Part shown: one piece after another, positions 13,651-30,356 of the stretch
Numbering within the stretch: the first letter of the stretch is position 1
Layout: each line of letters opens with the position of its first letter
Source of the DNA: Fodinisporobacter ferrooxydans
Lineage (GTDB): Bacteria > Bacillota > Bacilli > Tumebacillales > MYW30-H2
Assembly (NCBI RefSeq): GCF_022818495.1
Contig: NZ_CP089291.1
Location: forward strand, 1,644,501 to 1,708,500
Length of the DNA: 64,000 nucleotides
Direction: 5' to 3'
The notes under the pieces: model-generated
What the model was told of the DNA's origin: nothing
Seen by the model: the letters and a program-made list of their open reading frames with translations, nothing else
Database searches by the model: none
Position numbers and translations under genes: made by a program

Positions 13651-14341
13651 AATTGATTGCAGATTGTGAACTCGAGATGGAACAGTCGCTTTGCTTTGTT
13701 TCACTTTATCAAATAAGATAGTTTTGTGTCATTATTTCTCGGGAAATGACGAATAGGAAGTAATGAATCGACTTGACTCGACATCTGACAACCAATGTTA
13801 AATGAACACGGATCTGAATCCGTGACGATAGTCACTGATTGCAGGGGGGTGGCACGAGTACACATGCAGTTGCTCAAACAGTGCCGATCATCTTGCTCGG
13901 ATTACGTTTATAATGTCGCAAGACGATCGGCAAACTCGCCCTTTGCATGTGTACGTATACCGCCCCCAATTTGCTTTTGATGATTGTAAGCATACTTTAA
14001 TGAACCCTTGAAAATAAAGGATTGTAAAGGTGTTACCCTCTATTTTTTCTTCTCGCTTTACGTCGTACATGCCGCGTATATCCTATGAAAAGCAAGGAAC
14101 CACGGATTGTTTCTGCCAAATCGAAGTCGAATCTGTCTGACTTGTTTCCCATGGCATAAAAGGCCAAGATAAGAAACAGCAACATCCCTATATGAGATAT
14201 CCGGTGAAGGATTATCAGGCACATGAGATTGGTTTAAGCGTTACGGATTCTGGTGTGAGTAATAAGATTTTGGGGTGATTGAATAGAATCCCCTATTCAT
14301 GTATATTTGCAGCAGATAACGATGGGAATTGGGGGATTTAT
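13651..14341. other. Gene-poor accessory gap
   Basis: No convincing gene is seen between the SdpI-like and HAD genes. The short open frames here lack start signals and recognisable domains. The only clear structure is the palindromic element copy at 13823-13975. Confidence 0.7.
13823..13975. repeat. Palindromic element, copy A
   Basis: A small hairpin GTGAC-GATA-GTCAC starts the element. A long imperfect palindrome follows: GGGGGG at 13844-13849 pairs with GCCCCC near 13962-13968, GTACACATGCA with TGCATGTGTAC (11 bp, perfect), and GCCGATCATCTTGC with GCAAGACGATCGGC (one mismatch). An internal loop carries GCTCAAAC. The 5' part matches copies at 15214 and 16101. It could be a mobile palindrome (bcr/MITE-like) or a structured RNA. 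I do not recognise it. Confidence 0.8.
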
Positions 14342-15211
14342 ATGGGCTCATTGGCAGCTATTGATTATAGCAAGGTTAAGTTGGTGATATTCGATTTGGA
14401 TGGCACATTATATGAGGACGATGATCATTTTGAATATTATGCAGAACAATTGAAACATAGGCTGCCAGAGCATCTGCAAGCCTCCTTTTCAAATGACTAT
14501 AATCAAGCGAAAGATGGAAAACTGCCTTTGCAAATTGGAAGAGTGTATGATCAACAAAAGGATTGGATTTTTGTTCAAAAGGCGGGTGAGATTGAGGAAG
14601 TATACGACTGGAAAGGAGATGCAGTTGATACACCCGAATGGCAACGTGTTTACGGGGAAGGTTGGCAGATTGATTTTGAACGTATTTTTTCGATCGGGGA
14701 TTCATGGTGGATTCCTAATGCGATTGCGAGACATTATGGATTGGGTGCAGACAAGAGCCACGAGGCATTTATCGCAACTCGTGAATTGATGATGAAGCCG
14801 GAATTTCGTATAGCCCAAATACCTAGACTTGCGGAAACCATTCAAAAGCTACAATCGGAATATGGGTGGATTACAGTACTGATGACGAACAGTCCGGAAA
14901 TAGACAGTCGGGTGATATTGCAAAAATTGGGATTGGAAAGCTATTTTGCAAAATTTATTTTTCGGGCCCGAAAACCTGTTCGAACAAAAGAGATCGTACA
15001 ATCATTATCTGAACAATTTCATGTTGGATATTCGAAAATTCTAAGTATTGGAGATAATCTCATAAATGAAATTTTGCCGGTCATTCAACTTGGCGGTCAA
15101 GGGATTCATATCAATATTGGTAAAATTTCGGAAGAGTTTTTAGAGCCGGCGCCACGCGTCGATTCGATGACAGAAATCATTGAAGATCTTGAAAAGCGCC
15201 ACTTGATATAG
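14342..15211 (+). CDS. HAD-superfamily hydrolase
   Basis: 289 residues. Motif I is FDLDGTLYED with nucleophile Asp18 and Asp20. Motif II is VLMTNSPE, motif III is probably the Lys in FRARKPVRTKEI, and motif IV is SIGDNLINE near 237. The cap region (about 30-150) is large and unusual, with YDWKGDAVDTPEWQRVYGEGWQ. ATG at 14342 has GGGGG 6 bases upstream; a TTG at 14279 would add 21 residues but abuts its RBS. The family contains phosphatases and related hydrolases; the substrate is unknown. It lies alone between two copies of the palindromic element, with no operon partner. Confidence 0.85.
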   Translation: MGSLAAIDYSKVKLVIFDLDGTLYEDDDHFEYYAEQLKHRLPEHLQASFSNDYNQAKDGKLPLQIGRVYDQQKDWIFVQKAGEIEEVYDWKGDAVDTPEWQRVYGEGWQIDFERIFSIGDSWWIPNAIARHYGLGADKSHEAFIATRELMMKPEFRIAQIPRLAETIQKLQSEYGWITVLMTNSPEIDSRVILQKLGLESYFAKFIFRARKPVRTKEIVQSLSEQFHVGYSKILSIGDNLINEILPVIQLGGQGIHINIGKISEEFLEPAPRVDSMTEIIEDLEKRHLI

Positions 15212-15213
15212 GT

Positions 15214-15300
15214 ACCGAGTGTCAGGGGTGGGCATGATTACACATGCTGACGCTCAAACAGTACCGATCATCTTGCATGATTAACAGATGTATAGTGGCA
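15214..15300. repeat. Palindromic element, copy B (truncated or divergent)
   Basis: The 5' arm matches copies A and C: AGGGGTGGGCATGATTACAC, the ATGC end of the outer stem, the GCTCAAACAGT loop, and CCGATCATCTTGC. After GGCAAG near 15298 the sequence departs, so the expected 3' arm is missing. It begins within a few bases of the HAD stop codon. Confidence 0.7.
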
Positions 15301-15597
15301 AGCGCACCGATCAACGGACGCTTGGCGGATTGTTTTGTGTTTGCTGAGCGACGAGGCAAACACCTTGGGCTGGGAATTGCCTTGCAACAGCTTCTTAACT
15401 GTATCGGAGATCACATTTCTATTTCAAGATGCAAAAGTTGAGTAAAATAAGATCCGAGAAAATTAGGAACTTCATGGATTTCAATGGATAGTTTAGGCAT
15501 ACTGATTTAATAAAGGGATTTACTTCTCATAGATGAAAAGAAACTTTATAATGGAAAGAACAGAGGGGCTGTTATGCCTAGAGGAGGTTTATACAAA
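15301..15597. other. Intergenic stretch between copy B and the bacilliredoxin gene
   Basis: No gene is supported. A hairpin GTGTTTGC / GCAAACAC lies at about 15338-15363, and AAGCG / CGCTT flank the divergent tail of copy B. Nothing else is recognised. Confidence 0.6.
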
Positions 15598-16038
15598 ATG
15601 AGTATTCAATTTTTTGAATCTGATATTTATCGGCAAATGTTCCAACAAATGCGGGATGAGCTTACGCAAGTCGGTTTTAAAGAGTTGTTGACGGCTGATG
15701 AAGTAAAAGCAAATCTCGACAATGCTCAAGGGACGACGTTGGTTTTTGTAAATTCCGTTTGCGGTTGCGCCGGCGGAATTGCACGGCCTGGAGTGGCTAA
15801 GGCGATTCAACACTCCATTCGCCCGGATCATTTGGTAACTGTGTTTGCAGGCCAGGATAAAGAAGCAACAGCCGAAGCGAGAACATATTTCGTTGGATAT
15901 CCGCCATCGTCGCCGTCTATGGCCTTGTTAAAAGACGGCAAACTGGTATATATGATGGAACGGCACCAAATTGAAGGCAGAGATACTGATGCAGTTGCCG
16001 GTGATCTCATTCGTGCATTTGAACAATACTGTGGATAA
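15598..16038 (+). CDS. Bacilliredoxin (BrxA/BrxB, YphP/YqiW family)
   Basis: 146 residues, full length. The active-site CGC motif is Cys55-Gly-Cys57 in VNSVCGCAGGIARPG. The family wording FAGQDKEATAEAR and GYPPSSPSMALLKDGKLV follows. Bacilliredoxins remove bacillithiol from S-bacillithiolated cytosolic proteins, so the organism probably makes bacillithiol. ATG at 15598 follows GAGGAGG by about 10 bases; the frame is open to 15574 but without an RBS there. A terminator follows directly, so it is a single-gene unit. BrxA and BrxB paralogues cannot be told apart here. Confidence 0.93.
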   Translation: MSIQFFESDIYRQMFQQMRDELTQVGFKELLTADEVKANLDNAQGTTLVFVNSVCGCAGGIARPGVAKAIQHSIRPDHLVTVFAGQDKEATAEARTYFVGYPPSSPSMALLKDGKLVYMMERHQIEGRDTDAVAGDLIRAFEQYCG

Positions 16039-16045
16039 AAGATAG

Positions 16046-16071
16046 GCACCCATTTTGGGTGCTTATTTTTT
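16046..16071 (+). terminator. Terminator after the bacilliredoxin gene
   Basis: Perfect stem GCACCCA / TGGGTGC with a 3-base loop, followed by TTATTTTTT. Confidence 0.9.
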
Positions 16072-16100
16072 GCAACTTACTTTTAATAACTTACCTGAGT

Positions 16101-16250
16101 CCGTGACGATAGTTACCAGGTGCCGGGGGCATGCGTGAACACATATCAGGTCGCTCAAACCGGCATCGATCGTCTTGCTCTTGATTGATTCGTAGCGGCC
16201 GCAAGACGATCGATAAACTTAGCACTGCATGTGTAACACCTACCCCAAGG
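16101..16250. repeat. Palindromic element, copy C
   Basis: It starts with the same CCGTGACGATAGT run as copy A, including the GTGAC-GATA-GTTAC hairpin. ATCGATCGTCTTGC pairs perfectly with GCAAGACGATCGAT (14 bp), where copy A has GCC/GGC at the same stem end, which is a compensatory change. The loop carries GCTCAAAC, and ACACAT / ATGTGT forms part of the outer stem. It ends near TACCCC, about 50 bases before the IS left end. Confidence 0.8.
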
Positions 16251-16298
16251 TTCACTTCTTTATGCAAGCACCCCAAAGAAATACTTGATAATTAAAAA

Positions 16299-17758
16299 AC
16301 TTGAGTCTTGCAAAAATTTTGCTGTAGAAATTTGGCGAAGCCTGTCAAATCTTTAGAACCTTTGTCGCATTGAAAAAATAATAAAGGACACCTGTCATCT
16401 TTTGCGGAAATTATAAGTTACCACACAAATAATCCCAAAAGAGGAGATGTCCACTTTCATGGTAACTTTGTATTCTGCTATCGTCAAGTTTATTTTGGCA
16501 ATGCAATTGCAATTTACAGCGCCACAACGGAACCATCTCCTTCACATCATGCAAGGAATTATTTTGTGTGAAGGGCGTAAAACCATTACACAAATTCGAA
16601 GCTCTACGAATTCCTATCGTCATCTCAGTTGCATGACGAAATTCTTGAAACACTCACCTTGGTGTGTAAACCGAATGCAAAAACGCCGTATGCAGTTTTT
16701 GTTGGAAAAGATCAGGCGTAAGCATTCTAAAAAGGGAGATACCCGATCCATCGTATTCTTGATCATCGATGATACGAGCTGTAAAAAAGATGTTTCTACC
16801 AAACATATTGAAGCACTTGATTTTCATTTTTCCCATGATGAAGGGAAAGGTGTGTGGTCCCATTGTTTAGTTACCGCCCATCTTGTTAGCGAAGGGTATT
16901 CCTTCGCATGGGATTTCCGACCCTACTTTCGTGAGGGATACTGTAATGTCAACCAAATTCCATTCAAGAGCAAAAATGATTTGGCTCTGGAACTCATTCA
17001 AAGCTATGAAGCATCTGATGATGAGTTGGTTTATGTTCTAATGGATAGTTGGTATACCAGCAAGAAAATCATAGATGCATGTAATGCAAAAGGGTTTCAC
17101 ATTATTGCTGCCGTTAAAACCAATCGCAAAATCCGCCCTGCGGGCATTCGAATTCAGATTGCTGAATTTGCAACGAATTATATTCACCAGTCCGATCTCC
17201 ACTCTGTTACCGTGGGGAATCAGAACATGTACTGGGTATATGAATATGAAGGCCCGCTGGCAGACGTTGAAAATGTTAAAGTCTTGCTCTCCTGGGAAAA
17301 GGAATTCGATTCAAGCAAAACACCGTTTTGTATCCTTTGCACAGATCAAACGTTGGATCTCGAAACCATCCTTCGGTATTATCAAGTGCGCTGGAATATT
17401 GAAACCGGATATCGATATTTTAAGGAGATGCTAGGCTTTGACCAATATCAATTGCAATCGTTTTATGCCATTCAGCGTTATTGGGCAATTCAATTCTTGG
17501 TCTACAATTTTCTTGAATTACAACGAAACGAATGGTCCACTGAGCAGGATCCAATGACGTTAGGGGACGTAGTACGTCGAATTCGAAAGGAATATTTCGG
17601 ACAAATCGTTACCTACGTCTATCAACAAGCCCTAGCTCAACGACCTCTTTTCGAAGTGTTAGACGAATTGAAACTAAGTGCCTAATTGCTGTTTTTACGA
17701 ACACACTATACGTGTGCCCATTTTTCGGCCTAATCGGCCCAAAATGCAAGACTCAAGT
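16299..17758 (+). mobile_element. Complete insertion sequence, IS4/IS701-like, 1,460 bp
   Basis: Perfect 14-bp terminal inverted repeats ACTTGAGTCTTGCA lie at 16299-16312 and, inverted, at 17745-17758. They enclose one intact DDE transposase gene. Both flanks are runs of A (five before, seven after), so a short A-only target duplication is possible but cannot be sized. A GGCC-TAATC-GGCC hairpin lies just inside the right end. Confidence 0.85.
16459..17685 (+). CDS. DDE transposase, IS4/IS701-like
   Basis: About 408 residues. The catalytic triad can be placed at Asp near 105 (LIIDDTSCKKD), Asp near 197 (LMDSWYTSKK) and Glu near 315 in YQVRWNIETGYRYFKEMLG, which fits the Y-(2)-R-(3)-E-(6)-K signature of IS4-type enzymes. 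It cuts and rejoins the IS ends. GAGGAG abuts an ATG at 16447, while ATG at 16459 is 12 bases downstream; both starts are possible. The frame is unbroken, so the element may still be active. Confidence 0.9.
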   Translation: MVTLYSAIVKFILAMQLQFTAPQRNHLLHIMQGIILCEGRKTITQIRSSTNSYRHLSCMTKFLKHSPWCVNRMQKRRMQFLLEKIRRKHSKKGDTRSIVFLIIDDTSCKKDVSTKHIEALDFHFSHDEGKGVWSHCLVTAHLVSEGYSFAWDFRPYFREGYCNVNQIPFKSKNDLALELIQSYEASDDELVYVLMDSWYTSKKIIDACNAKGFHIIAAVKTNRKIRPAGIRIQIAEFATNYIHQSDLHSVTVGNQNMYWVYEYEGPLADVENVKVLLSWEKEFDSSKTPFCILCTDQTLDLETILRYYQVRWNIETGYRYFKEMLGFDQYQLQSFYAIQRYWAIQFLVYNFLELQRNEWSTEQDPMTLGDVVRRIRKEYFGQIVTYVYQQALAQRPLFEVLDELKLSA

Positions 17759-27268: not shown

Positions 27269-27910
27269 ATGCAGATCAAATCGATTAATGTTGGAGTTCC
27301 GGCGCCAATGGTGTATGCCGATCAAGAGATTGCGACGGGGATTTTTAAACAGTCGGTAGGCGCAAAGGCTGTTTTTTTGGATTTGATCAATATAGCCGGG
27401 GACAGGCAAGCAGATCTGGTCAACCACGGCGGGAAAGATAAGGCCGTTTGTTTGTATCCCTACGATCATTATCCGTATTGGGAGAAGCGCTTAGGGAGAA
27501 AGCTGCCATTTGCATCCTTTGGCGAAAATCTTACAGCAGCGGACATAACAGAAGAAAGTGTATGCATCGGTGATGTATACCAATTGGGTGATGCGATTGT
27601 TCAGATCAGCCAACCTCGTCAACCTTGCTACAAACTGGCCACACGCTTTCAAATACCCGACATGGTGGATCAAATTCGCATGAATGGATACAGCGGGTTT
27701 TATATGCGAGTGCTCAAGCCTGGCATGATTTCCATTGAAAAAGGAATAAACATAATGGAAAAACATCCGGAAGGGATAACGGTAGCATTCACAAATCATA
27801 TTATGTTTCACGATCGATTCAACCGGGAAGCATTACTACAATTGATTCATTTGGATGTACTTGCAGAAAGTTGGAAAAAGACCTTTCGAGAGCGACTGGA
27901 ATCCCTTTAA
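27269..27910 (+). CDS. MOSC domain protein, YiiM-like
   Basis: 213 residues. The MOSC core shows HGGKDKAVCLYPYDHYPYW, SFGENLTAADI and the conserved Cys near 120 in QPRQPCYKLA, which binds the molybdenum cofactor sulfur. YiiM proteins reduce N-hydroxylated bases such as 6-hydroxylaminopurine, and related MOSC proteins handle Moco-linked sulfur. The RBS is AGGAGGG before ATG 27269. A nitrite/sulfite reductase gene lies beyond the next intergenic repeat, so this may belong to a redox or sulfur group. YiiM identity is a family-level reading. Confidence 0.9.
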   Translation: MQIKSINVGVPAPMVYADQEIATGIFKQSVGAKAVFLDLINIAGDRQADLVNHGGKDKAVCLYPYDHYPYWEKRLGRKLPFASFGENLTAADITEESVCIGDVYQLGDAIVQISQPRQPCYKLATRFQIPDMVDQIRMNGYSGFYMRVLKPGMISIEKGINIMEKHPEGITVAFTNHIMFHDRFNREALLQLIHLDVLAESWKKTFRERLESL

Positions 27911-28070
27911 GTGCGTGTTCAAAAAGTGGTTAAGTAAGACACAAGGAGTGCGAAGTCGAAGCACGAAAAGGCGACGGAGTGTACGTGTTTGGTACATGAG
28001 TAAGCTTTTTTGGGATTCGACAAAGCAATCCGCCGTGGAGTTTTGACTACTTTTTGAACATCCTCTTTAA
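27907..28070. repeat. 164-bp repeat element with GTTCAAAAAGT inverted ends, long copy
   Basis: It runs from TTAAGTGCGTGTTCAAAAAG to CTACTTTTTGAACATCCTC. GTTCAAAAAGT and ACTTTTTGAAC are terminal inverted repeats. The interior has small hairpins: GTGC-N9-GCAC, TGTAC-N7-GTACA and GGATT-N9-AATCC. A 43-bp version with the interior missing occurs at 30281-30323. MITE-like mobile repeat or structured RNA are the main options. Confidence 0.75.
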
Positions 28071-30232: not shown

Positions 30233-30280
30233 ATCAGCAATTATAAGTGACATAACTGTATAAGCTTAGTTTCACTTTAA

Positions 30281-30323
30281 GTGCGTGTTCAAAAAGCGAC
30301 TACTTTTTGAACATCCTCTTTAA
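30281..30323. repeat. Short copy of the GTTCAAAAAGT repeat
   Basis: It has both ends of the 164-bp element at 27907 but lacks about 120 interior bases, forming one hairpin of GTTCAAAAAG and CTTTTTGAAC. It is flanked by near-identical direct repeats TAAGCTTRGTTT (30261-30272 and 30321-30332). Confidence 0.8.
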
Positions 30324-30356
30324 GCTTGGTTTTTTCATGGGAAGGGGTATATAGAG

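Follow-up and report, generated by a model that had tools for sequence, protein, structure and literature searches.

Palindromic repeats are common in bacteria, and how they multiply is mostly unproven. The bcr1 and other bcr repeats belong to the Bacillus cereus group. The PATE-type derivatives of IS200/IS605 have palindromic ends, a fixed short target-like left sequence and no long target duplication. The repeats described here were found in a stretch of 64,000 nucleotides from Fodinisporobacter ferrooxydans (contig NZ_CP089291.1, positions 1,644,501 to 1,708,500), hereafter called the window. They make up a new family of large repeated palindromes, shared by two related bacteria, F. ferrooxydans and a genome of the same order (G004). 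Like bcr1, the repeats are dispersed, palindromic and mostly intergenic, measure some 150 bp and occur in a Bacilli genome, and a first inspection of the window by its letters alone (the sequence-only reading) had drawn this comparison. As a claim of membership it does not hold, since no terminal inverted repeat or target duplication could be defined for the copies named A-type below, and the hairpin family, unlike bcr1, has an internal loop, outer shells and nesting. We know of no sequence in common between the two. All three traits of the PATE elements recur in the hairpin family, but G004 has no Y1 gene and its inner unit is repeated inside its own loop.

In the portion of the source available, the NEMIS/Correia, ERIC and RPE elements are presented as small mobile repeats of 100-200 bp, multicopy, with a long stem-loop and no transposase of their own (PMC2229807), and the hairpin family resembles them in all these respects. 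It differs in that TA-type terminal inverted repeats were not found on A-type copies, and in its self-nesting, of which that portion of the source makes no mention for NEMIS-type repeats (PMC2229807). The GTAG-tagged REPs measure 20-40 bp and occur with RAYTs (PMC3733652). In G004 the shells are likewise extragenic and close with a hairpin that at 43 of 57 ends has GTAG nearby on one strand, but that genome has giant nested hairpins and no RAYT. Literature searches (titles and abstract beginnings) returned no description of the hairpin family or of self-nested bacterial palindromes.

Copies in the window and the home genome

The window contains three related palindromic copies, A, B and C (Table 1), which confirms the initial observation.

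Table 1. Coordinates of the hairpin copies and of the adjoining insertion sequence in the window
Feature	Position	Strand	Basis
Copy A, complete A-type element: small 5' hairpin, giant hairpin, 3' module ending TAAGCA	13814-13992	+	Sequence; R1 match 13814-13984
Small 5' hairpin of copy A, GTGAC-GATA-GTCAC	13822-13835	+	Sequence; start conserved in 17 copies
Asymmetric internal loop of copy A, 5' side GCTCAAAC	13872-13879	+	Sequence
Asymmetric internal loop of copy A, 3' side CAAACTCGC	13931-13939	+	Sequence
Inner stem of copy A, 13883-13896 with 13918-13931; 21-nt apical loop 13897-13917	13883-13931	+	Sequence
Copy B, decayed, nearly full-length core without small 5' hairpin	15214-15341	+	R1, R2 model scores
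Copy C, complete A-type element	16094-16270	+	Sequence; R1 match 16095-16263
Inner stem of copy C, 16165-16178 with 16201-16214; 22-nt apical loop	16165-16214	+	Sequence
Neighbouring IS, DDE transposase ORF 16447-17685, inverted repeat ACTTGAGTCTTGCA; outside element	16299-17758	+	

The GTGAC-GATA-GTYAC hairpin reported for A and C is real, although its position in copy A had been given one base off; copy C carries GTGAC-GATA-GTTAC at 16103-16116. The G-rich outer arms, the internal loop GCTCAAAC and the inner stem were also found in both sequences, the last as GCCGATCATCTTGC/GCAAGACGATCGGC with one A-C mismatch in copy A and as ATCGATCGTCTTGC/GCAAGACGATCGAT in copy C. Compared to dinucleotide shuffles, copy A is far more stably folded (z -6.4), while the gain is only modest for C (z -2.6) and B (z -2.2). 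Copy B, which begins 3 bp past the HAD stop codon, was supposed to have kept its 5' arm and lost its 3' arm. The 3' arm is not simply lost, since the copy can be aligned to the full length of the joint core model R2 (15231-15341; E 9e-4 in the window, 22.7 bits), but pairs in its stem are broken. Its match to model R1, built from five copies, is weak (18.5 bits); copies A and C reach 194 and 152.7 bits, scores that are high by construction because both sequences belong to that model.

The genes around the three copies were correctly named: a HAD hydrolase, a PF06491 Disulph_isomer gene, which we take to be bacilliredoxin-type, and a DDE transposase. The IS carrying the latter sits inserted immediately behind copy C, so that the reported adjacency stands, but it has inverted repeats of its own and is not part of the element.

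The home genome is a single contig of 4.86 Mb. With copy A as a BLAST query 14 matches were obtained, the best other place being 81% identical over query positions 14-199 (E 6.5e-43). A search with R1 gave 24 rows at E <= 1, that is, 20 distinct places after four opposite-strand echoes were dropped. Five of these, R, S, T, U and V, score weakly, with E from 0.006 to 0.37; they were counted because each opens with the conserved start. Together with B, K and W the home genome has 23 places, 22 of them outside ORFs (plain ORF calls). Seven have well-scoring cores and one a weaker core (74-97 and 33.6 bits, respectively, with R2); the remainder are truncated, decayed or without the giant stem. The conserved start, CCTGAATCCGTGACGATAGTCACC, is present in some form in 17 copies; I, J, K, R, U and V end shortly after it, and L, M, Q and T have lost the giant stem or most of it. 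A GTAC duplication inferred from the core-less copies Q and T was rejected, as a slippage deletion accounts for it equally well. Three kinds of shell surround the core: the A-type with its small 5' hairpin, an unrelated inverted-repeat MITE (N, O and W) and yet another kind of flank (P). Copy F (G000:C1 about 1080850-1081030; L016:650-830) continues into a very A+T-rich low-complexity stretch.

Covarying stems and nested hairpins in a relative

Among 13 other genomes of the order, R1 matched only G004, which belongs to a different family. The covariance-model search proposed in the sequence-only reading did recover further copies, since R2, built from seven copies of the home genome and ten of G004, found at least 149 cores in G004, close to the ceiling of 150 candidates, in addition to those above. 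The inner stems of G004 and the home genome are homologous (GGTCGTCTCGC/GCGAGACGACC vs. GATCGTCTTGC/GCAAGACGATC), the asymmetric internal loop is present in both (3' side CAAAGTCGC vs. CAAACTCGC) and the apical loop measures about 19-22 nt. In searches with strict filters and nine candidates scored per genome, only these two genomes matched among 398 genomes of the class, and only the home genome among 398 of the phylum. One exact-pattern scan of viral contigs for the G004 stem gave no match. The corresponding scan of genome contigs gave two places, in an Arenicella MAG and an Acidobacteria MAG, which were taken as chance; it is no proof of absence, because the two host genomes went unrecovered as well. 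At the gathering threshold no Rfam family fell on the element (the only hits were to rRNA, tRNA and a T-box leader next to one copy), and a relaxed search gave only chance-like sub-threshold matches, eukaryotic miRNA-like and similar. Thus, as far as Rfam goes, the family matches no described one, as had been stated. The T-box leader lies close to one repeat copy of G004 (L035:1728-2063).

The unit is an imperfect hairpin of approximately 105-115 nt with an outer stem, an asymmetric internal loop of nearly fixed sequence, an inner stem (GRTCGTCTYGC/GCRAGACGAYC in most copies) and the apical loop. Stem covariation, noted before for A and C, is real both across the two genomes, where seven of the 14 inner-stem pairs have two-sided changes (17 sequences), and within G004. 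In 61 G004 cores 98.4% of 1464 cells are paired, but the rows were selected on their inner stem and on the internal loop's 3' side, and the pairing and conservation of these parts are therefore flattered. There are 76 two-sided changed cells compared to 27.6 in shuffles (none of 500 as high), and 0 to 3 when the structures are slid by 1-3 columns; further pair types do not exceed shuffles (124 of 500 as high). Row choice made no use of the outer helix or of the 5' side of the loop, and of these the former has two-sided changes in three of nine pairs, while the latter, GCTCCGTG, is nearly invariant. One-sided changed cells number only nine, and the excess of two-sided ones is explained by concerted change of both DNA arms or by subtype mixing equally well as by RNA compensation.

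In G004 the hairpin also sits within the apical loops of further copies, with as many as three levels. Counted by chromosome position among 71 loci, there are 17 empty and 23 filled places for type-2 shells, and 16 and 10, respectively, for type-1 shells. An empty shell is closed by its own stem, with some 20 nt in the loop, whereas most filled ones hold one further hairpin in the loop, which adds about 105 nt. Accordingly, type-1 shells measure 90-92 when empty and 196-198 when filled, and type-2 shells 34-37 and mostly 139-144. Six type-2 places at 235-250 have three levels, about twice the 105-nt gain, and collapsed or rearranged shells were seen at 135 (two of type 1) and at 96, 127-128, 172 and 183 (type 2). 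All 22 orientable inserts among the 23 of type 2 share one direction; of the inserts in the 10 filled type-1 shells, nine are clearly the same and none runs opposite. The 5' junctions of the inserts are variable. In shells of either type the insert is succeeded by the tail ...AAGGAAGC. The likeness of this tail to the empty loops is not significant (14 of 200 shuffles reach it), so that the loop may have been exchanged for a unit bringing its own tail, rather than have received a plain insertion. Given the single orientation and the common 3' tail, few founding events may lie behind the many nested copies. Orphan shell ends were considered as possible autonomous elements and rejected, since the 12 regions with such ends hold only empty or filled shells, with no gene inside one.

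Mobile repeat, structured RNA or transposon derivative

The sequence-only reading had offered two options, a mobile palindrome and a structured RNA family; the many genomic copies, the covarying stems and the relative in the same order agree with it; taken as a whole, that reading is partly supported. We favor, with a probability of roughly 0.6, a non-autonomous palindromic mobile repeat with a self-nesting habit, moved in trans. This is suggested by the unequal spread (23 places in one genome, at least 149 cores in another and no other genome in the searched sets), by one core type in several unrelated shells, by empty and filled shells differing by the length of a unit, and by the decayed, truncated and stem-less copies at places mostly outside ORFs. 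One unit of about 105-115 nt would thus be carried within different outer shells in the two genomes. The copies would have moved as DNA, with an enzyme supplied in trans that may recognize the folded hairpin, perhaps via its internal loop, and the apical loop itself may be a target. By analogy with NEMIS one might guess at consequences for the host, for instance RNase III acting on transcripts. Against the mobile repeat speak the Y1, reverse transcriptase and TnpB searches of the two genomes, which revealed no mobiliser, the 3' end of A-type copies, which is not sharp and leaves no target-site duplication definable, the one-way inserts with their common tail, which may trace to few founding events, and the gene-orientation bias of G004, which hints at function.

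It is more doubtful that the hairpin prefers the apical loop of a folded hairpin, chiefly of its own kind, sensing single-stranded structure with the internal loop as a signal and building concentric palindromes. Large nested palindromes are generally thought to be selected against by replication and repair, and if the loop is truly a target, it would offer a route to them. As one genome contains both empty and filled shells, the junctions left when one hairpin enters another are open to direct reading, and the genome pair, with about eight cores vs. at least 149, is a place to look for the missing enzyme.

The main alternative, although an unlikely one, is a structured RNA element kept by selection on transcripts (a 3'-UTR stabiliser, a processing site or similar), its dispersal being secondary. 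The covarying stems around a conserved unpaired internal loop speak for it, and none of the 23 home copies lies between divergent genes (plain ORF calls). Among 61 places in G004, 35 copies are antisense and five sense to flanking co-directional genes (30 vs. four with a wider mask), with six convergent, six divergent and nine undecided; two places are inside an ORF of 250 aa or more. This strong bias favors an RNA role, but it is absent from the home genome (nine vs. seven). Shell variety, many decayed copies, very unequal copy number and nesting also speak against selection on a transcript, as do the rarity of one-sided pair changes, expected too from concerted DNA-arm change or subtype mixing, and the Rfam result. 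Strand in G004 also tracks chromosome arcs (65:17 vs. 24:37), more closely than did any of 200 shuffles, for which a coarser grid was used; a replichore effect was rejected as the account of strand, the gene-orientation bias being stronger.

A bcr1-like explanation, with the repeats as ordinary DDE-transposon MITEs that have inverted repeats at their termini, is improbable. It would fit copies N, O and W, whose core is enclosed by GTGTTCAAAAAG and its inverted copy, an end with 17 further short matches in the home genome, and copy N, which carries TCTTTAAG on both sides. These terminal inverted repeats, however, are common to N, O and W only and missing from other copies, the ends of A-type copies not being inverted repeats of one another, and the same core is found in several unrelated shells. 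Moreover, two of the 17 matches are at core-less MITE-like repeats in the window whose CTTTAA flanks are similar, and this flank may therefore belong to the element. These core-less repeats (27905-28070 and 30275-30324) are bounded by GTGTTCAAAAAG/CTTTTTGAACA, the same ends as around N, O and W, and one is only about 50 bp, nearly bare ends.

Least probable of all is that the repeats are REP/PATE-like and use CTAY sites with the help of a Y1 transposase (IS200/RAYT-type): the two shell types of G004 open with CTAYC-TTGAAAA (51 of 61 isolated starts have a TTGAAAA-like stretch, 29 of them with CTAY exactly before it) and close with a hairpin and then CTAY (within 16 nt at 43 of 57 ends, 24 of which run straight into the next copy), which reads GTAG on the opposite strand, as in the tag of GTAG REPs (PMC3733652), but the units are much larger than REPs, no such tag is visible at A-type ends, PF01797 has no match in G004 at E 1e-3 and the only Y1 gene of the home genome stands alone, with no copy in its 3.4-kb locus.

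As for a mobile repeat moved in trans, neither genome has a copy at its loci for Y1, reverse transcriptase or TnpB. At 11 loci checked for reverse transcriptase or TnpB next to a copy there was no real match (one of 14 bases, E 0.085), and a group II intron, a retron or a TnpB-associated element was rejected, as no such gene adjoins a copy at these loci. Three reverse transcriptase genes of the home genome (L160, L162 and L163) have equal scores and an open frame of 509 aa and are possibly one group II intron that was copied, while two matches in G004 about 0.7 kb apart (G004:C1 1738856-1740513; L159, L161) are perhaps one broken gene or two neighbouring ones.
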